From Synergistaceae bacterium (GTDB lineage Bacteria > Synergistota > Synergistia > Synergistales > Aminobacteriaceae): a stretch of 64,000 bases of DNA. Both the position numbers and the translations under genes were made by a program. Below are positions 4,551 through 62,451 of the stretch, piece after piece; position 1 is the stretch's first letter; each line of letters begins with the position of its first letter. A model generated the notes under the pieces. It worked only from the letters and a program-made list of their open reading frames with translations, searched no databases and was not told the origin of the DNA. The stretch spans positions 124,001 to 188,000 of the forward strand of contig JAHDLC010000022.1 in assembly GCA_018436595.1 (NCBI GenBank), read 5' to 3'.

Positions 4551-4645
4551 CCCGGGCCGGCCCCGAAAATCATTTTGTTGTTCCGTTCACAAAAAGGCTT
4601 GACTCCTTTTTTTCATTGTGTAAAATAAACATGATCTCCGGATGA

Positions 4646-4760
4646 ACGCCGCAAGAGAGACTTTCCAGCACACAGGAGAGCGCCGAAGGGGCAAGGCCCG
4701 CCGTACAGGGCGGGCGGAAACTCTCAGGCGAAAGGATTGCGGCCGGACGGATCTCTGAAA
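4646..4760 (+). promoter_or_regulatory. Glycine riboswitch (one full aptamer)
   Basis: The leader has the ordered glycine-aptamer signatures: AGAGAGAC (4654-4661), a small hairpin (TTTCC/GGAGA), GCGCCGAAGGGGCAAG (4680-4695), a GC hairpin (GCCCGCC...GGGCGGGC), ACTCTCAGGCGAAAGGA (4720-4736) and the closing GGACGGATCTCTGA. Only one aptamer is evident, not the tandem arrangement. The 3' closing strand CTCTG can alternatively pair with CAGAG near 4808-4814, ahead of the grdX ribosome site (GGGAGG at ~4835), a possible ON-switch without an obvious terminator. It precedes the glycine reductase operon, so glycine probably induces its own catabolism. Confidence 0.9.
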
Positions 4761-4846
4761 TGAATAGCTCCCCCGATGCGGTTTCTCTCCTCTCCGGGGC
4801 TATGCGACAGAGAGTGTCTTACCTATAGGTATAGGGAGGCAGTTGA

Positions 4847-5287
4847 ATGTCCTGTCGCAGGCTTCTTGTAACCAACAATCCCCTTTTGCGGAACGCTGTC
4901 CCGTCCTGCGATTTCATCGACGGAAACCCTCTTGCTGTTCTTCTGCGGTCAAGGGACTATGTCCATCTCGGATGGATACTGCTGTCCCACCCCCTCTACG
5001 GGAACCTCCGTCCCCACCAGCATCCGTACCGCTCCATTCTCCTGGAGCGCCCTGACGGTGAACCCCGGCCGGCTCTCGACCTCCAGTCCCTGGAATACGT
5101 CGAAAACGCTCTCGGGGTGTATTCCGCCGAGAAGGAGCGGATTCTCTCAGACAAGGGAATGCCCGAAGGCGTCCGGGACGATTTCGCCGTCATCGACGCC
5201 GAGCTCATGAAGGAAAGCCTTTCCCGGTACGGCCTGTGGCCCCGGGAATCTTTGAAGACAGATCTATTGAAAGGAGGTGAAGGATAA
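4847..5287 (+). CDS. grdX: GrdX family protein, first gene of the glycine reductase operon
   Basis: A 146-aa soluble protein beginning MSCRRLLVTNNPLL. The early TNNP motif, the RDYVHLGWILLSHPLYGN stretch and the position directly before trxA-grdE match GrdX, a short protein of unknown biochemical function found at the head of clostridial glycine reductase operons. It is the first gene after the glycine riboswitch. Its tail contains the strong ribosome site (AAAGGAGGTG) of trxA, and its stop overlaps the trxA start by one base (TAATG). The assignment rests on motif memory plus context, not on an alignment. Confidence 0.75.
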   Translation: MSCRRLLVTNNPLLRNAVPSCDFIDGNPLAVLLRSRDYVHLGWILLSHPLYGNLRPHQHPYRSILLERPDGEPRPALDLQSLEYVENALGVYSAEKERILSDKGMPEGVRDDFAVIDAELMKESLSRYGLWPRESLKTDLLKGGEG

Positions 5288-5607
5288 TGGTTGAATTGAC
5301 GAAAGAGAATTTTGACGCCGAGGTCAAGGAGAGCGCGCTCCCCGTGCTTGTTGACTTCTGGGGCCCCAAGTGCGGCCCCTGCATGGCGCTGCTCCCCAAT
5401 GTCCACAAGATGGCGGAGGAGTACGAAGGCAAGGTGAAGTTCTGTTCCGTGGATGTTTCCGAGAACCGGAGAGTTGCCATCGCGAACAAGGTCATGGGTC
5501 TTCCCACGTTCCTCTTCTGGAAGGACGGAGCGGAAGTCGCCAGGATCAGCGGCGGAGATGTTACCCTGGAGAAGATCAGGGAAAATGTGGAGGCTCTTCT
5601 GAAGTAG
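5287..5607 (+). CDS. trxA: Thioredoxin of the glycine reductase system
   Basis: This 106-aa single-domain thioredoxin has the redox motif WGPKCGPCM (Cys29 and Cys32), the cis-proline segment GLPTFLFWKDG and normal length. In glycine reductase the thioredoxin re-reduces the selenoprotein GrdA after each turnover. Sitting between grdX and grdE with coupled translation, it is very likely dedicated to that job. The lysine before the CxxC (GPKC) recalls the glycine-reductase-associated thioredoxins of clostridia. No thioredoxin reductase gene (trxB) lies in the operon, unlike several clostridial operons. Confidence 0.93.
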   Translation: MVELTKENFDAEVKESALPVLVDFWGPKCGPCMALLPNVHKMAEEYEGKVKFCSVDVSENRRVAIANKVMGLPTFLFWKDGAEVARISGGDVTLEKIRENVEALLK

Positions 5608-5640
5608 CCTTCGCGCCCAAAAGGGGGGAAACAGACAACC

Positions 5641-6927
5641 ATGAGACTCGAGCTGCACAAGGTGAAAATCAACAAGCTGGCCTGGGGAGACACGACCTCC
5701 GTCCGGGCCGGTGTGCTGACGGTGAACAAGGAGGAGCTCCTTTCCGTTCTCGCAGGCGATGAACGGCTTGCAAAGGTGGACGTGGACATTGCCCTTCCAG
5801 GCGAAAGCGTCCGCATCCTTCCCGTGAAGGACGTCGTGGAGCCCCGTTTTAAAATGGAAGGCCCCGGCGGAGTGTTCCCGGGCATGGTGTCCGACGTGGA
5901 ATCCGTCGGCGAGGGCAAGACCCTCGTCCTTTCGGGAGCCGCCGTTGTGACCACTGGAAAGATTGTCCGCTTCCAGGAAGGCATCATTGACATGACCGGT
6001 CCCGGGGCCGACTACACGCCCTATTCCGGGACATGCAATGTCGTGATCATCCTCGAAAACGTCGAGGGAATCGACAAGCACGATTACGAGACCGCCTGCA
6101 GGATGGCGGGGCTGAAAGCTGCAGCCTACCTGGCCGAGAAGTGCCTCGGCACGCCCGCCGACGAGGTTGAGACCTACGAGACCCCCTGCCTCAAGGACGC
6201 CATGGCGGCCCATCCCGGACTGCCGAAGGTCGCCTACCTCTACATGCTCCAGTCCCAGGGACTTCTTCACGACACCTACCTTTACGGAGTGGACGTGAAA
6301 AAAATCCTTCCCACCTTCCTCAATCCCACGGAAGTCATGGACGGAGCCATCGTCTCGGGCAACTGCGTGTCCGCCTGCGACAAGAACAACACCTACTCCC
6401 ACCAGAACAACCCGGTGATCCACCACATGTTCAGGCGCCACGGCAAGGACTTCAACTTCCTCGGCTGCATCGTCACCAACGAAAACGTGACCCTTGCCGA
6501 CAAGAAGAGATGCTCCTCCTATTCCATCAAGCTCGCGAAGACCCTCGGTGTGGACGGTCTTCTCATCTCCGAGGAAGGCTTCGGCAATCCTGACGCCGAC
6601 CTGATCATGAACTGCTGGAAGGCCGAGCGGTCAGGAATCAAGACAACCCTTCTCACCGACGAATACGCCGGCCAGGACGGCGCGAGCCAGTCCCTCGCCG
6701 ACTCCTGCCCCGAGGGAGATGCATGCGTCACCGCCGGAAACGCCAATGAAGTGATTGTTCTTCCTCCCATGAAGAAGGTCATCGGCGTTCCCGAGGAAGC
6801 CAACGTCATCGCCGGAGGCTGGCAGGGATCCCTCGCCGCCGACGGGACCATTACCGTGGAGCTCCAGGCCATCCTCGGAGCCACCAGCGAACTCGGCTTC
6901 ACGAAACTCGGAGCCTACACCATCTGA
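5641..6927 (+). CDS. grdE: Glycine reductase component B, alpha/beta proprotein GrdE
   Basis: GrdE is made as a proprotein of the substrate-specific component B. It self-cleaves before an internal cysteine to give two subunits, the C-terminal one carrying a pyruvoyl-type carbonyl that binds glycine as a Schiff base. The 428-aa product has the cleavage motif [11 protein letters not shown] with the Cys at residue 242, matching the family position. The sequence around it, including [19 protein letters not shown] and [13 protein letters not shown], fits the glycine-specific GrdE rather than the sarcosine or betaine forms. It is followed 37 nt later by grdA. Confidence 0.96.
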
Positions 6928-6964
6928 TCCGACGTACCGCACAACGACAAGGAGGTGTCACAGC

Positions 6965-7441
6965 ATGGCTAAACTGGCAGGCAAGAAAGTGCTGCTGCTC
7001 GGTGAGCGCGACGGCGTTCCCGGCCCCGCCATGGAAGCATGCCTGAAGGACAGCGGCGCCGATATCGTCTTTTCGGTGACCGAATGCTTCGTCTGAACCG
7101 CCGCAGGAGCCATGGATCTGCAGAACCAGCAGCGCATCAAGGATGCCGCTGAGAAGTACGGCCCGGAAAACGTGGTCGTCATTCTGGGTTCCTCCGATGC
7201 CGAAGGCGCAGAAATCTACGCCGAAACGGTAAGCAACGGAGACCCCACCTTTGCAGGTCCCCTGGCCGGAGTCCAGTCTGGACTCGCCGTATACCATGTC
7301 TTTGAACAGGAGATTCGGGACGAATGCGACGCAAACGCCTGGGAAGAGCAGATCAGCATGATGGAAATGGTGCTCGACCCCGAGAAGCTGTCTGAAGCCG
7401 TGAGCGGCATTCGGGCACAGTTCAGCAAGTACGCCCTATAA
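6965..7441 (+). CDS. grdA: Glycine reductase selenoprotein A, UGA read as selenocysteine at codon 44
   Basis: The frame from the ATG at 6965 (ribosome site AAGGAGGTG) is interrupted only by TGA at 7094-7096, inside the conserved GrdA motif [14 protein letters not shown], and then runs to the stop at 7439-7441. That gives 158 residues, the usual GrdA length. GrdA shuttles the carboxymethyl group as Se-carboxymethyl-selenocysteine from component B to component C and is re-reduced by thioredoxin. The TGA is therefore a recoded Sec codon, not a frameshift or pseudogene. Automatic gene callers would report only the fragment from 7112. selA/B/C/D genes are not in the window. Confidence 0.97.
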
Positions 7442-7458
7442 GAGGGGAGGGAGAAATT

Positions 7459-8766
7459 GTGTCATACCGGATCATTCATTATATAAACCAGTTTTACGCC
7501 GGAATCGGAGGCGAAGAGAAGGCTGACGTCACTCCCGAAATCCGGGAGGGAGTCGTCGGGCCGGGAATGGCCCTGAAGGCCGCTCTTGGAACGGATGCCG
7601 AGATAGTTGCCACAGTTGTCTGCGGAGACTCCTATTTCGCTTCCAACATGGAGAAGGCGTCCGCCGAAATACTTGACATGATGAAGAAGTACAAGCCCGA
7701 CGCAGTGGTTGCCGGGCCGGCCTTCAACGCGGGCCGCTACGGCACCGCCTGCGGCGCCGTGTGCGAAGCCGTGGTCAAGCAGCTCGGCATCCCCGCGGTG
7801 TCCGGAATGTACCCCGAAAACCCCGGCGTGGAGATGTACAAGAAGAGCTTCTACATCGTGGAAACCCCGGACAGCGCAGCAGGCATGAAAAAGGCCGTTC
7901 CCGCCATGGCGGCCCTCGTCCTGAAGCTCCTGAAGGGCGAGAAGCTCGGCACTCCCGCCGAGGAAGGCTACATCGAGCGGGGCGTCAGGAAGAACAAGTT
8001 CTACGACAAGCTCGCCGCCGAGCGGGCGGTGGACATGTTCACCGCCAAGCTCAAGGGAGAGCCCTTCGTCACCGAGTATCCCATGCCCGTCTTCGACCGG
8101 GTTGCGCCCAACCCGGCGGTGAAGGACATGAAGAACGCGGTCATCGCCCTGGTCACCTCCGGCGGCATCTGCCCCAAGGGCAACCCTGACCACATAGAGG
8201 CCTCCAGCGCCAGCAAGTTCGGCGAGTACGACATCTCCGGCGTGATGGACCTCACCGCCGACGGCTATTGCACGGCCCACGGCGGCTATGACGCCACCTA
8301 CGCCGACCAGGACGCCGACAGGGTCCTCCCCGTGGACGTGCTTCGCGACATGGAGAAGGAAGGCGTCTTCAAGAAGCTCCACAACAAGTTCTATACCACC
8401 GTGGGCAACGGAACGGCCGTGGCCAGCGCCAAGAAGTTCGGCGCCGAGATCGCCCGGAGGCTCATCGCCGACGGAGTGACCGCCGTCATCCTCACTTCCA
8501 CCTGAGGAACCTGCACTCGTTGCGGCGCAACGATGGTCAAGGAAATCGAGCGTGCAGGCCTTCCCGTAGTTCACGTATGCACCATAGTTCCCATCTCCCT
8601 CACCGTGGGAGCCAACAGGATCGTTCCCGCAATTGCCATTCCCCATCCTCTCGGTGATCCCACGAGGACCATGGAAGAAGAGAAGGAGATCCGGCGCCAT
8701 CTGGTCCAGAAATCCCTGAAGGCGCTTCAGACCGAAATTTCCGATCAGACGGTGTTCGCCGACTGA
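7459..8766 (+). CDS. grdB: Glycine reductase component B, selenoprotein GrdB, UGA read as selenocysteine at codon 349
   Basis: The gene starts with GTG at 7459 (AGGGAGG upstream) and encodes MSYRIIHYINQFYAGIGGEE. TGA at 8503-8505 falls exactly in the GrdB active-site motif LTST-U-GTCTRCGATMVKEI, and the frame continues to 8766, giving about 435 residues, normal for GrdB. The Sec residue attacks the C-N bond of the glycine Schiff base held by GrdE. A perfect 7-bp stem with a GGC loop (8517-8533) begins 12 nt after the TGA, suitably placed for a bacterial SECIS element. Without recoding the gene would appear as two pieces (7459-8505 and 8533-8766). Confidence 0.97.
8517..8533 (+). promoter_or_regulatory. 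Candidate bSECIS hairpin in grdB
   Basis: The perfect stem TCGTTGC/GCAACGA with loop GGC lies 12-28 nt after the grdB UGA. Bacterial SECIS elements sit directly 3' of the UGA with G residues in the apical loop, where SelB binds. The loop identity is inferred from position and shape only. Confidence 0.6.
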
Positions 8767-55781: not shown

Positions 55782-55810
55782 TTGCCTTGGGAAAAAGAGC
55801 AGGGTACAAT
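55782..55810 (+). promoter_or_regulatory. Promoter of the tup operon
   Basis: TTGCCT (55782-55787) and TACAAT (55805-55810) are separated by 17 bp, with GGG directly before the -10. It precedes a ~178-nt leader. Confidence 0.75.
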
Positions 55811-55819
55811 ACCTTGCGG

Positions 55820-55961
55820 ACAGTCCCTCCGAGCCATGAAACCTACAGGCGCCAGCCCACGGATCCATGGCCGACAGGGTGCTCCCGGAAACGGAAGCGC
55901 CTCCCGCACGGCAAGGGGGGAAGGACGCGAAGCGTGCCTTTCCTGCGGTATGGGGAGGGGC
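55820..55961 (+). promoter_or_regulatory. Candidate Moco/tungsten-cofactor riboswitch with terminator attenuator
   Basis: The tupB leader contains, in order, CTCCGAGCC (55827-55835), GGCGCC, GGAAACGG, GCGCCTCCCG and a closing GTCC/GGAC pairing, the conserved elements I recall from the Moco RNA motif. It ends in hairpin GCCTTTCC/GGAGGGGC (55936-55943 with 55954-55961), directly before ATTTTTTTA, a good intrinsic terminator 10 nt upstream of the ribosome site. This fits an OFF switch repressing tungstate uptake when cofactor is abundant. Confidence 0.65.
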
Positions 55962-55988
55962 ATTTTTTTATTGAAAGGGAGGAATTCC

Positions 55989-56684
55989 GTGAGCTACCTT
56001 TCGGAAGGATTCATTCAGGGCCTCGGTCTCATCTTCACCATGAACGAGGAAGTCTGGACGGCAGTGATCACCACCCTCAAGCTTTCGTTCCTGTCCATGG
56101 CCGTCACCCTTGCCCTGGGCATACCTGGGGGCTTTATCCTGGGCTACTTCTCCTTTCCGGGGCGCAGGATCCTCCGGATCATGGTGGACACCCTGCTCTC
56201 AATCCCTACGGTAGTGGTGGGGCTCTTCGTCTATGCCTTCATTTCCAACCGGGGACCCCTCGGCGGCTACAGCCTCCTGTTCAGCATTCCCGGCATGGCT
56301 ATCGGCCAGACCATACTGGCCCTTCCCATCGTGGTCGCCCTCACGGCGTCCGCTGTGGAGAGCGTGGATGACCGGCTCCGGCTCACCCTCCTCACCCTGG
56401 GCGCCCGTGGAAAGCGGCTTGCCCTTTCCACCCTCTGGGAGAGCAGGCACCAGATCCTCCTCGCCGCCGTCACCGCCTACGGAAGGGTCACCGCCGAGGT
56501 GGGGGTCTCCATGATGATCGGCGGCAACATCAAGTGGCACACCCGGACCATCACCACCGCCATCACCCTGGAGACGGGCAAGGGAGAATTCTCCACCGGC
56601 ATCGCCCTCGGCGTCCTGCTCCTCGGTCTCTCCTTCGTTCTCAACTGGTCCCTGGCGGCCCTCCGCAGGAGGACGGCATCATGA
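55989..56684 (+). CDS. tupB: Tungstate ABC transporter permease TupB
   Basis: The 231-aa permease has about five membrane helices and the TupB-type segment around TTVVVGLFVYAFISNRGPLG and GMAIGQTILALPIVVALTASAVE, with the EAA-like loop LLTLGARGKRLALSTLWESR. TupABC imports tungstate with very high affinity for tungsten enzymes. GTG at 55989 follows GGGAGGA; it overlaps tupC by 4 nt (ATGA). No tupA (binding protein) is upstream or downstream. Confidence 0.85.
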   Translation: MSYLSEGFIQGLGLIFTMNEEVWTAVITTLKLSFLSMAVTLALGIPGGFILGYFSFPGRRILRIMVDTLLSIPTVVVGLFVYAFISNRGPLGGYSLLFSIPGMAIGQTILALPIVVALTASAVESVDDRLRLTLLTLGARGKRLALSTLWESRHQILLAAVTAYGRVTAEVGVSMMIGGNIKWHTRTITTAITLETGKGEFSTGIALGVLLLGLSFVLNWSLAALRRRTAS

Positions 56685-57364
56685 TGCGGCAGGCCCAAAA
56701 AAACGGAACTGCCCCTCTCTACGAGATCAGGGACCTCGTCTGCGCCTATGGAGACGAACCGGTACTGCATATCGACCGGCTGGACATTTCCTCCGACGGT
56801 CCCACCGCCTTCGTCGGCCATAACGGCAGCGGCAAGAGCACCCTCCTGAAGGCCCTTGCCTTCCTTCTGAAACCCGCGGCAGGCACCATACGCTTTCTGG
56901 GGGAACCCACGGAAGAGCGGGAAGGGGAACTCCGCAGGGAAGTGACCCTCCTCCTCCAGGAACCCTATCTCCTCCGGCGTTCCGTCTTCGAGAACGTGGC
57001 CTACGGCCTTCGGGCCCGGGGGGCCACGGACCGTCTTGTTGAACGGGTCGCCGAAGCCCTTCAAATGGTCGGTCTCCCCCCGGACTTCGGAAAAAGAGAA
57101 TGGTTCAGGCTCTCCGGGGGGGAATCCCGGAGAGTGGCCCTAGCCTCCCGACTTGCCCTCCGGACGAAGGTCCTTCTCCTCGACGAACCCACCGCCAATG
57201 TGGACGAAGAAAACGCCCTTCTCATGGCCCGGGTGATCGGGGAAGCCCGGGAAAAATGGGGTACAGTCTCCCTCATTGCCTCCCACGATATCCAGTGGCT
57301 CGACGGTGTCTGCGGCAGGCGCATCCTCATGAGGCGGGGAAAAATCGAGAGCATTTCCGCCTGA
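56681..57364 (+). CDS. tupC: Tungstate ABC transporter ATPase TupC
   Basis: The 227-aa ABC ATPase has Walker A GHNGSGKST (46-54), signature LSGGESRRV, Walker B VLLLDEPTANVD and the His-switch ASHDIQWL. It powers the TupB permease. Context and the Moco/W-type riboswitch support tungstate; molybdate remains possible. Start at 56681 has GCAGGAGGAC upstream, inside the end of tupB. Confidence 0.85.
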   Translation: MMRQAQKNGTAPLYEIRDLVCAYGDEPVLHIDRLDISSDGPTAFVGHNGSGKSTLLKALAFLLKPAAGTIRFLGEPTEEREGELRREVTLLLQEPYLLRRSVFENVAYGLRARGATDRLVERVAEALQMVGLPPDFGKREWFRLSGGESRRVALASRLALRTKVLLLDEPTANVDEENALLMARVIGEAREKWGTVSLIASHDIQWLDGVCGRRILMRRGKIESISA

Positions 57365-58801: not shown

Positions 58802-59153
58802 GGGGCCGACTGGTCTCGACGGCAAGACGGAGGGTCTGGAAGAGCGGGCCGAGGTCGTCCGAACCTCGTTAAACGCGGACACAAAAACAAACGTCAACAA
58901 CAATAACTACGCACTGGCTGCTTAATGCAGTCACGTCTTACGCGGCAGCAGCCGCCGTTACTGCGTAAGGCGACACAAAATGGCGGATGCTTTTCGGGGA
59001 GTGTCTCCGGTCCCGGAAAAAAGATAAGGGGGCTTGGGCGAGAAAATCCTGTTCCCGGGAGTTTTGAGCCGACACTAAATCGGGAACTACGCCCGTAGCG
59101 CTTCCACGGCTGGCCCTTGTCGGACGGGGGTTCGATTCCCCCCGGCTCCACCA
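58802..59153 (+). ncRNA. ssrA: Transfer-messenger RNA
   Basis: One-piece tmRNA: 5' end GGGGCCGACTGG pairs with the 3' CGGCTCC-A-CCA, and the T-arm GGGTTCGATTCCC is canonical. The tag reading frame ends ...AAC GTC AAC AAC AAT AAC TAC GCA CTG GCT GCT TAA, giving NVNNNNYALAA with the typical YALAA degron. The codon before AAC is ACA rather than the usual GCA resume codon. It also forms the integration site of the downstream element. Confidence 0.95.
59128..59153 (+). other. Probable attachment site (attL) at the tmRNA 3' end
   Basis: The terminal T-arm/acceptor sequence of ssrA is followed 175 nt later by a tyrosine integrase gene. tmRNA 3' ends are classic attB sites. The matching direct repeat on the right side lies outside the window. 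Confidence 0.6.
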
Positions 59154-59185
59154 GACTTAATAATCAGGAATAGTCAGAAGAGAGG

Positions 59186-59213
59186 AAAACCCGGCCAAAT
59201 ACCGGGTTTTTCG
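59186..59213 (+). terminator. Terminator after ssrA
   Basis: AAAACCCGG/CCGGGTTTTT hairpin with a seven-base loop, followed by T residues. It lies inside the integrated element and so may have been brought in by it. Confidence 0.82.
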
Positions 59214-59254
59214 CTTTTCTGGTTTCAACGCGTTTCATGGTTTTTCATCGAAAT

Positions 59255-59283
59255 TTGACATTTTTTCGTCCTAACCGTATAGT
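59255..59283 (+). promoter_or_regulatory. Promoter of the integrase gene
   Basis: TTGACA (59255-59260) and TATAGT (59278-59283), spacer exactly 17 bp. The following leader has an imperfect inverted repeat (CCCGTATAT...ATATACGACGGG), a possible operator. Confidence 0.8.
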
Positions 59284-59328
59284 CCCGTATATAGAACAGG
59301 GTGAAAATATACGACGGGAGGGGAGACA

Positions 59329-60471
59329 ATGCCGCTCACAGAAAAGCAGGTAAAGGCCCTCAAACCCCGAGAGAAGGTATCAGTTTTCTCTGACGGTAAC
59401 GGGCTCATTCTCGAAGTCCACCCCACGGGAAGGAAAACATGGATTGCCCGGCTATGGATTCAGGGGAAAGAGAAAAGGAAAACCCTTGGCCAGTTTCCCG
59501 ATATGCCCCTTCGGACGGCCAGGGTTCAAAACATCCTTTTACGGGAGAAGCCCGAAGAAGCCCGCGAGAAGGAAAAGCTGTTTGGTGAAGTCGCGGAGGA
59601 ATGGCTTTCTGTCCGGGTGGCAAATACGGTAAAAGATAATCACCTTCGGACAATAGAGCTCCGTATATCGAAATATATCGAACCGGCCCTTTTCTCAACT
59701 CCAATCAACGACGTCACCGCGCCCCAGGTTCTTACACTTCTTAGGCTTGTAGAATCCTCCGGCTTCGTCGAAACGGCCCACAGGGTACGAAATATCATCA
59801 GTCAGATTTTCCGCTTTGGCGTCGCGTGCGGTTATTGCTCCGGTGATCCGGCCGCCCTTTTGTCAGCCGCCTTAAAACCGTCGAAGTCAAAACCATTTCC
59901 AGCCGTCACAACCGAGCCCGAGCTGAAAAAACTCGTCAGCGATATTCTGAGCTACCAACAGCCCATGATGAGATATGCCCTTCTCTTTTCCCTTCTCACG
60001 GCTGCCCGCCCTGGTGAAGTCCGAGCGGCCGAGTGGAAGGAAATAGACCTGGAGAAAAAGACCTGGACTATCCCGGCCGAAAAAATGAAAATGGGCCTGG
60101 AACATACGGTTCCCCTGAGCAGTCAGATTGTGGAAGTTCTCGAGGGCTTGCACCTTTTGACGGGGAATACCAAGTTCCTTTTTCCCGGAGCCAGGACGAA
60201 CAGCCGGCCAATGTCCGACGCGGGGGTAAGGGCAGCGCTCCGGTATATGGGATACCGGAAAGAGGATTTTACCCCTCACGGATTCAGGGCCACCTTCTCA
60301 ACCTTCGCCAATGAGTCAGGAATCTTTTCTCCGGACGTGATAGAGGCAGCGCTAGCCCATCAGGATACAAACGCCATCCGAAGGGTTTATAACCGCGCCG
60401 CCTATTGGGAAGAACGGGTGAAATTAGCACAATGGTGGGGTGATTATGTTTTCAGCCTCACGGGGAAATAA
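59329..60471 (+). CDS. int: Tyrosine site-specific integrase (P4 type)
   Basis: The 380-aa recombinase has an N-terminal DUF4102-like arm-binding domain (LTEKQVKALKPREK, GNGLILEVHPTGRKTW), a core-binding domain and the catalytic domain with Arg227 (ARPGEVRAAEW), His317 and Arg320 (HGFRATFST), His344 (ALAHQD) and nucleophile Tyr354 (RVYNRA). It inserts the element at the adjacent ssrA end. Base usage is more AT-rich than the chromosome to its left, consistent with transfer. Ribosome site GGGAGGGG. Confidence 0.94.
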   Translation: MPLTEKQVKALKPREKVSVFSDGNGLILEVHPTGRKTWIARLWIQGKEKRKTLGQFPDMPLRTARVQNILLREKPEEAREKEKLFGEVAEEWLSVRVANTVKDNHLRTIELRISKYIEPALFSTPINDVTAPQVLTLLRLVESSGFVETAHRVRNIISQIFRFGVACGYCSGDPAALLSAALKPSKSKPFPAVTTEPELKKLVSDILSYQQPMMRYALLFSLLTAARPGEVRAAEWKEIDLEKKTWTIPAEKMKMGLEHTVPLSSQIVEVLEGLHLLTGNTKFLFPGARTNSRPMSDAGVRAALRYMGYRKEDFTPHGFRATFSTFANESGIFSPDVIEAALAHQDTNAIRRVYNRAAYWEERVKLAQWWGDYVFSLTGK

Positions 60472-60497
60472 ACGCCCGCGAGAAGGAAAAGAAAAAA

Positions 60498-60526
60498 GGG
60501 AGCCGTGAAAGGCTCCCCTTCTTTTG
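60498..60526. terminator. Bidirectional terminator between integrase and the convergent gene
   Basis: GGGAGCC/GGCTCCC hairpin with loop GTGAAA, followed by CTTCTTTT on plus and CTTTTTTCTTTTCC on minus. Confidence 0.85.
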
Positions 60527-60542
60527 GTTTTGAAAGGCCCTT

Positions 60543-60944
60543 TTAAGCGCTTCGCTTTTCTACCGGTACCGGATGGTTTTCCCTCATTTGCCTTATCCCT
60601 TGCGCAAGGAAACTCCCTGTGATTTTTAGGGCGTCAAGCTGAGTTTCAACCAACGGAAGATATAGTGAGGAATCACAAACCAGGTCATCCCTTTTCTGGA
60701 CAGCTTTCTCATAAGAATACCCTAGCTTAGCGGCCTCGAAAATTCCCTCTGCGTCGCTGGCCAGCTTGCCGATAATAGATAAGACCCGCTCAATGGTACC
60801 TGTCATGAGGTTAAGGGAATCTTCGATGTATATCAGGGAAAATTCTTTGAGGTTGGGCGTTGCTTTGACGTCGATAAGCGAACCGGGTATTCTGTATGTC
60901 TCTTCTTCCACAGTTTTTTCAATGCCTTTTCCTTGTGATATCAT
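60543..60944 (-). CDS. Hypothetical protein of the integrated element
   Basis: A 133-aa mostly helical soluble protein, MISQGKGIEKTVEEETYRIPGSL..., with LNLMTGTIERVLSIIGKLASDAEGIFEAAKLG resembling a four-helix protein. No family recognised. ATG at 60944 is selected because GAAAGGAGC is 7 nt upstream. It follows the excisionase-like gene on the same strand, 78 nt downstream, and may be co-transcribed. Confidence 0.65.
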   Translation of the reverse strand: MISQGKGIEKTVEEETYRIPGSLIDVKATPNLKEFSLIYIEDSLNLMTGTIERVLSIIGKLASDAEGIFEAAKLGYSYEKAVQKRDDLVCDSSLYLPLVETQLDALKITGSFLAQGIRQMRENHPVPVEKRSA

Positions 60945-61022
60945 TGTGGTGCTCCTTTCTTCCCGCATGGGGGATTGTGAGTATAAAGGGGTTTTCGCCT
61001 TGCCTGGGGGATACCCCTTTTT

Positions 61023-61202
61023 TTATTCCTTCCGTGTCCCATCTCTTGCCAGTTCCTCTAATGCACTTTCCGGAATGCGCCATACCCTGCCGAGTTTCAC
61101 CCCCCGTATTTTCCCCTTTCTGAGCCAATCGCCCAAAGTGATAGGGGAGATGGAAAGTATCTTTGCCGCCTCTTCCTTGCTGTAAAGTTTTTCAACGGTC
61201 AA
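61023..61202 (-). CDS. Small excisionase-family/MerR-like HTH protein
   Basis: A 59-aa protein with SKEEAAKILSISPITLGDWLRKGKIRGVKLGRVWRI, the helix-turn-helix plus wing pattern of the excisionase-family DNA-binding domain. The start is TTG at 61202, with GGAGGTG 6-7 nt upstream. It probably acts as the recombination directionality factor for the integrase or as a regulator. Too short for a 60-codon ORF cut-off, so easily missed. Confidence 0.85.
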   Translation of the reverse strand: MTVEKLYSKEEAAKILSISPITLGDWLRKGKIRGVKLGRVWRIPESALEELARDGTRKE

Positions 61203-61222
61203 TATATCACCTCCACGAGAGC

Positions 61223-61251
61223 ATTTTACATTATTTCAAATCAGTTGTAAA
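61223..61251 (-). promoter_or_regulatory. Promoter of the excisionase-like gene
   Basis: On the minus strand TTTACA (61251-61246) and TAAAAT (61228-61223) are separated by 17 bp, about 20 nt before the TTG start. Confidence 0.75.
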
Positions 61252-61408
61252 TATCCCAAGTCAGTTTTTCGTATAGGAGGGTGTTTTTCATTTGGGGGAG
61301 TTGGGGCTTTCGGAAGGGCTCCGTTCTTAGGGCTCTAGCATCAAAGGCCGATAGACTGACGCCCGCGAGGGCGGGGGTGTCCACATTATGGATACCCTCA
61401 CCCCGGGA

Positions 61409-61609
61409 CTATATCGCTTCCACGTTCACGGCGCATTCACGCCCGCGGTCATCCGCCCCGGGTTCAAACTTTACAGTCTGCCCGCCCCGAAGCGTTTTGA
61501 AACCGTCCATTTTGATTTGTTTGAAGTGCACGAAATAATCCTTCTCATCTTCGCCAACGATGAATCCATATCCCTTTGCATCCCGAAACCACTTCACTTT
61601 ACCTTTCAA
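61409..61609 (-). CDS. Cold-shock domain protein (CspA-like) in the integrated element
   Basis: The 66-aa OB-fold protein has RNP1 (KGYGFI) and RNP2 (DYFVHF) and typical CspA spacing: MKGKVKWFRDAKGYGF. It binds single-stranded nucleic acid. Phage and element-borne copies are known. It lies on the minus strand between the terminase-side genes and the excisionase gene, with ribosome site AAAGGG. Confidence 0.9.
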   Translation of the reverse strand: MKGKVKWFRDAKGYGFIVGEDEKDYFVHFKQIKMDGFKTLRGGQTVKFEPGADDRGRECAVNVEAI

Positions 61610-61663
61610 TAAAAGGATCCCCTTTCACTTGCCTGGAATAGTGCCGGGGTATTACGTCCACTC

Positions 61664-61951
61664 TTAGGACACCCCGGCATGAGCTCCGGTACTCAGCGCC
61701 CCGGCCGGCGCAGCGGTCAAAGTGTTGGAGGACCTTCCCCGCCCGGTGGTGTTATTTTGAACATTCAAGCTGGACACCGCCACCTGGTCCAGAAACCCCG
61801 CGGATGGAATGACGCGGGGAATACTTTCATGGTAAGACCCCCCGGAGGGGGGAAGGGGCAAAGGTACGGCCCTCAGCCTAAAACCGCCGCCCTGGACTAG
61901 CCCTTCCGTGCCCGCGCCTTTTGCCCTCGGGGGGTAAAACCCGGGGCTCAT
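61664..61951 (-). CDS. Uncertain small ORF coupled to the small terminase gene
   Basis: A 95-codon frame starts with ATGA overlapping the stop of the small terminase gene, a layout that favours translation coupling. The product (MSPGFYPPRAKGAGTEGLVQ...) is rich in Gly, Ser and Pro with no motif, and several GC hairpins lie in the region, so it may equally be non-coding. The 336 nt between csp and the terminase gene hold nothing else I can support. Confidence 0.35.
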   Translation of the reverse strand: MSPGFYPPRAKGAGTEGLVQGGGFRLRAVPLPLPPSGGSYHESIPRVIPSAGFLDQVAVSSLNVQNNTTGRGRSSNTLTAAPAGALSTGAHAGVS

Positions 61952-62451
61952 TCAATATCAACGTCATCGTCATCAATATCATCGTCCCAGTTGTCGCCGT
62001 CCAGCAGCTTCCGCAGGAAAACCGAGTCTTTATCTGACGGGGGCGGCGGCGGCAAGTCCATCCTTCCCCTCGCGTCGGGGGAGAGCCCAAAGGCTTTTAC
62101 CCACGAGAGAAGGAGCTTTTGCGCCTGGTTGCTTGCGCTCTGGCATGGGTGGGCCTGTAGGCAGCCGTTCGGCGTCAGGACCGTCAACCCCTCTTCCGCT
62201 AACCGTTGCTCAGCCTCGCGCCATTTCGCGTATGTCAGGCAATAGGATTCAAGGGCGCATAAGTCCAGGCCGGTAAGCAGTCCCGCCACGTGGAGTGCCG
62301 GCGCAACCCGTTTCCATTCCTCTTTTGCCCTATCCGGCAGCCATTTTGGACACCTTGGGACTTTTCCCTTCTCAACAACGGGGGTATGTCGGCTTTTTCC
62401 CGGCAATCCTTCAAGCGCCCGTAAATGTGCCGGCTTTTTTCTTTGTGCCAT
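61948..62451 (-). CDS. Phage small terminase subunit, P27 family
   Basis: The 167-aa protein opens with MAQRKKPAHLRALEGLPGK, then has CPKWLPDRAKEEWKRVAPAL...LTGLDLCALESYCLTYAKWREAE and LQAHPCQSASNQAQKLLLSWVKAFGLSPDARGRM, the P27 terS pattern of a DNA-recognition helix region plus oligomerisation part. It ends in a run of aspartates. TerS selects phage DNA for packaging and needs a large terminase, which is not in the window. Start preceded by AAGGGGG 7-8 nt upstream. Confidence 0.9.
   Translation of the reverse strand: MAQRKKPAHLRALEGLPGKSRHTPVVEKGKVPRCPKWLPDRAKEEWKRVAPALHVAGLLTGLDLCALESYCLTYAKWREAEQRLAEEGLTVLTPNGCLQAHPCQSASNQAQKLLLSWVKAFGLSPDARGRMDLPPPPPSDKDSVFLRKLLDGDNWDDDIDDDDVDIE

Follow-up and report, generated by a model that had tools for sequence, protein, structure and literature searches.

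A P3-less Moco-family RNA, very likely a transcriptional OFF riboswitch and probably sensing the tungsten cofactor, ahead of tupBC in a split tungstate transporter of the Synergistaceae

The closest described relatives of the leader studied here are the RNAs of the Moco RNA motif (RF01055; Regulski et al. 2008, PMC2408646), which share a conserved core with helices P1, P2, P4 and P5 and a GAAA tetraloop, and which stand, with terminator-type platforms, upstream of molybdenum and tungsten target genes, those for transport included. Forms that lack P3 track Tuco metabolism, as a correlation, and Tuco-type RNAs such as those of Syntrophomonas wolfei have no P3, accompany tungsten genes and occur in several copies per genome (PMC2408646). 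Deletion of P3 in E. coli abolished control and did not switch the ligand (PMC2408646). We found an RNA of this kind ahead of tupBC in the window, that is, in the whole 64,000-nucleotide stretch of DNA that was analysed. It shares all of the above features with the Moco motif and differs from it in nothing essential, being of the P3-less subgroup. Like the Tuco-type RNAs it lacks P3, precedes tungsten genes and is one of several copies in its genome, but it is a single aptamer and not a tandem. Two further differences lie in the host, whose genus belongs to the Synergistaceae (the text of PMC2408646 nowhere contains 'Synergist') and whose transporter genes form two transcription units that both carry an aptamer. 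We consider it very likely that a P3-less riboswitch of the Moco family, probably sensing the tungsten cofactor and acting as a transcriptional OFF switch, controls tupBC.

The covariance-model search with RF01055 that the earlier note had called for was positive, and its Moco/tungsten riboswitch candidate was borne out by a match on the plus strand of 64.5 bits, against a cut-off of 36 (E 3.2e-13 when the 64-kb window was compared with all families, and 1.7e-15 for the short stretch only). The match covers positions 55815-55933 of the window, so that the aptamer begins five bases before the start of 55820 assigned previously. The cmscan alignment, in which the P3 positions of RF01055 are deleted, contains CCUA...ACGG in P2, GGAAAC in P4 and CCUCCCG; P1, P2, P4, P5, the GAAA tetraloop and its receptor in P2 are all present. 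The alignment and a fold with P1 forced place the 5' strand of P1 at 55824-55830 and the P4 hairpin with the GAAA tetraloop at 55877-55902, and in the forced fold the 3' strand of P1, which is common to the antiterminator described below, lies at 55915-55921. Related tup leaders show covariation, with changes on both sides of 13 pairs. All four sequence blocks from which the motif was originally recognized are present, and three of them are core elements (CTCCGAGCC at 55827-55835, GGAAACGG at 55887-55894 and GCCTCCC at 55899-55905). The fourth, GGCGCC at 55848-55853, falls outside the motif; it is a chance sequence of the variable P2 loop, reads GGCGGC in two congeners (G001 and G002), and was rejected as a motif element. 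Because P3 is missing, we assign the aptamer, as a predicted member, to the Tuco-type subgroup (Regulski et al. 2008).

The genes behind the aptamer were assigned as proposed in the earlier note. The first, tupB, encodes a tungstate ABC permease with a GTG start (55989-56684, plus strand), and the second, tupC, an ABC ATPase of a short form of 227 aa (56681-57364, plus strand). Their best NCBIfam matches are NF041773 (261 bits, E 7.9e-78) and NF041774 (185 bits), neither of which reaches its curated equivalog cut-off (320 and 400, respectively); the genome has no second TupB-like match of similar strength. The TupC alignment covers positions 2-208 of the 319 of NF041774, so that the C-terminal third of the model has no counterpart; longer TupC proteins are frequent in relatives outside the genus. 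A leader conserved in related species, which the note had expected of a riboswitch, was found: the Moco leader with its terminator and antiterminator sequences is kept before tupBC in three congeners (G001-G003) and before tupBCA in a further member of the family (G021).

The genome contains six Moco RNAs, which precede tupBC, tupA, wtpBCA, a MoCF-domain gene with formate dehydrogenase, the molybdopterin aldehyde oxidoreductase NF045668, and AOR. Among the host genome and 60 relatives, 36 of the 61 have Moco RNAs. The six AOR-family genes of the host suggest a tungsten-rich physiology. The strongest alternative keeps the same riboswitch and changes its ligand to Moco or to either cofactor, so that tungstate import would be shut by the total pterin-metal cofactor. 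P3-less RNAs likewise stand before formate dehydrogenase and before NF045668, an aldehyde oxidoreductase of the molybdenum-hydroxylase kind, for which reason the ligand could also be Moco, and the founding paper never showed direct binding for Moco RNAs (PMC2408646). Against this stand the tungstate-type nature of the transporters (TupA, TupB and WtpABC), the six AOR-family genes, and the association of P3-less forms with Tuco users (PMC2408646). We give this alternative an appreciable chance, short of an even one, and retain the tungsten cofactor as the probable ligand.

Two side observations concern Moco RNAs elsewhere in this group. Two congeners (L053 and L057, from G001 and G002) have a further Moco RNA of 115 nt that is absent among the matches of the host genome and has no reference molybdenum or tungsten protein match within 4 kb downstream. 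At L011 (12533-15280, minus strand), the alpha subunit of formate dehydrogenase behind a Moco RNA reads as two open reading frames split at ...VDHCARV-stop, and this stop is probably a selenocysteine codon.

We then considered how the aptamer could act on tupBC. A sigma-70-like promoter, TTGCCT-17-TACAAT, lies at 55782-55810 on the plus strand (9 of 12 matches; 0.2 expected), both of whose boxes are shared with one other member of the family and with three congeners, and from this promoter-like site transcripts would start just at the aptamer. Downstream of the aptamer is an intrinsic terminator at 55934-55969 (hairpin stem 55934-55963, seven T at 55963-55969), supported by three overlapping terminator-like calls against 0.6 expected; three congeners and a further family member keep it as well. 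The Shine-Dalgarno sequence of tupB, GGGAGG, follows at 55977-55982, in agreement with the earlier description of a hairpin with seven T just ahead of the tupB ribosome site. The minimum free energy fold contains a different hairpin, the antiterminator GGGAAGG-ACGC / GCGU-G-CCUUUCC (55918-55943), whose sequence is kept in congeners and which draws on the 3' strand of P1 and on the left terminator arm (55934-55943).

In ensemble folds of the window leader, which are thermodynamic and were computed without pseudoknots and without ligand, the antiterminator had a probability of 0.99 and the terminator 0.00 when P1 was free, whereas the values became 0.00 and 0.99 when four P1 pairs were enforced as a crude stand-in for the ligand. 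The leader of G002 switched alike (antiterminator/terminator from 0.95/0.05 to 0.00/1.00), and those of G001 and G021 switched in part. The expression platform is best conserved within the genus. Since the two folds exclude each other in dependence on P1, the window leader is best read as an OFF switch that works by termination. At low cofactor levels, P1 would give up its 3' strand to pairing with the left terminator arm, and tupBC would be transcribed; at high levels, the aptamer would close P1, the terminator would form, and tungstate uptake would be turned off.

A mainly translational switch or a default terminator, in which the hairpin attenuates constantly and is not gated by the aptamer, appears unlikely. 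It would suit the G003 leader, where the terminator forms in either state of P1 (0.99), and the G036 leader, from which the T run is absent. In the window, however, both hairpins compete for 55934-55943, the antiterminator takes up the 3' strand of P1, forcing P1 flips the fold fully, and the Shine-Dalgarno sequence lies outside both hairpins.

No tupA adjoins tupBC, as the earlier note had remarked; tupBC is on contig C37 and tupA on contig C13. Of the two explanations then offered, that the binding protein is encoded elsewhere proved correct. The genome search for tupA found a single TupA (C13:160473-161303; NF041772, 320 bits, below the curated equivalog cut-off of 400), which matches the solved TupA 5my5 at 4.7e-96, has tungstate-binding TupA proteins as its nearest solved structures, and carries the TTTS motif (PMC5517513). 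Orthologues of TupB, TupC and TupA are all present in the genome, and the other explanation, a different substrate-binding protein serving TupBC, was rejected as TupA itself is there. Two other PF12849 matches were seen, one on contig C39 adjoining a permease-like gene, which we read as probably of phosphate type, and a weak one inside a LysR-type regulator.

The tupA gene lies 86 bases downstream of its own Moco RNA (71.4 bits), with a terminator-like hairpin also ahead of it. With its own copy of both elements on each part, the split transporter would stay co-regulated. The congeners G001, G002 and G003 likewise keep tupA and tupBC as separate units with a Moco RNA before each. Elsewhere in the order, families usually have one Moco RNA ahead of tupABC, and G021, of the host's own family, has one ahead of tupBCA. 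The simplest history would be an operon split in which the leader was kept on both parts; TupABC function does not depend on gene order. One congener, G003, has two tupA copies (L058 and L059), each with its own Moco RNA. That the leader is a relic, with tupBC out of use since tupA moved away, is most improbable: tupA does not adjoin and TupC is short, but tupB, tupC and tupA are intact and conserved in congeners (identity 86-96% in G001 and 88-94% in G002), where each unit keeps its own conserved leader.

The sixth Moco RNA of the genome, which precedes AOR, is of a divergent type. It lies at C13:57769-57879 (L013 7770-7880, minus strand), scores 35.2 bits, just below the RF01055 cut-off, and belongs to a 111-nt set found in six genomes, always ahead of AOR. 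The common fold of this set has 15 pairs changed on both sides, a number that none of 500 shuffles reached, slid versions giving 2-4. The variant is like the canonical, tupBC-type RNA in overall fold and scores over or near the RF01055 cut-off, which most of its members still pass; a model, R1, sets it apart from the canonical RNAs of the phylum, with scores from about 65 bits upward for the variant and no higher than 57 for the canonical kind. A scan of 84,980 species genomes with one pattern returned 20 exact matches, where we estimate fewer than one by chance, in records labelled Synergistaceae, Chloroflexota, Coprothermobacterota, Clostridiales, Actinomycetes and Oleimmundimicrobium. Across 39 variants, P5 is invariably G-C/C-G instead of the canonical C-G/C-G, its outer pair being reversed (CCUGCC..UUYGCAAAG), the P4 loop is always AGYRAU in place of GGAAAC, and the tetraloop receptor (CCUA/UAUGG) is missing; the first P2 pair is C-G instead of G-C in 37 of 38 distinct sequences. 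With classes set by simple patterns and relatedness uncorrected, AOR was downstream of 39 of 44 variant leaders versus 2 of 119 canonical ones (Fisher p 1e-29), and four of the five variants without AOR precede formate-dehydrogenase-like genes. Because intermediates between the two types exist (L203, L209 and L239), we rank the AOR-linked variant as a sub-class. Only one of the six AORs of the host has a variant leader. Relatives of the variant (L045-L049, L122-L145 and L152-L171) come from Synergistota, Chloroflexota and other lineages. A literature search, with most subscription papers outside its reach, found no description of an AOR-linked Moco variant.

Other features of the window lie at a distance from tupBC. 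A glycine riboswitch (60.8 bits) is followed by a set of open reading frames that reads as a glycine reductase operon (4642-8543), and one frame of it, which ends just before a SECIS_4 element (8506-8543), is for that reason likely to encode a selenoprotein. Directly after a tmRNA gene comes a tyrosine-type phage integrase (59329-60471), and a phage terminase small subunit lies farther along (61948-62451, minus strand). These indicate, at 58802-62451, a probable prophage that has the tmRNA gene as its integration site.

The tupBC leader is a good new example of an already known gene control. What makes it valuable is that a split transporter has its control in duplicate and that one cell holds both aptamer types. 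What appeared to be an orphan permease and ATPase is explained as part of a split transporter with the same riboswitch on each part, and the leader offers a clean terminator platform that is open to assay. We tentatively propose that one cell may use two Moco-family aptamers, the divergent kind serving mainly tungsten AOR-type enzymes in several phyla and sensing the cofactor in another form, such as nucleotide-free tungsten-bis-pyranopterin. With ordinary P3-less and divergent AOR-linked aptamers in one organism that has several tungsten genes, the host provides a natural test of the ligand of Moco RNAs.
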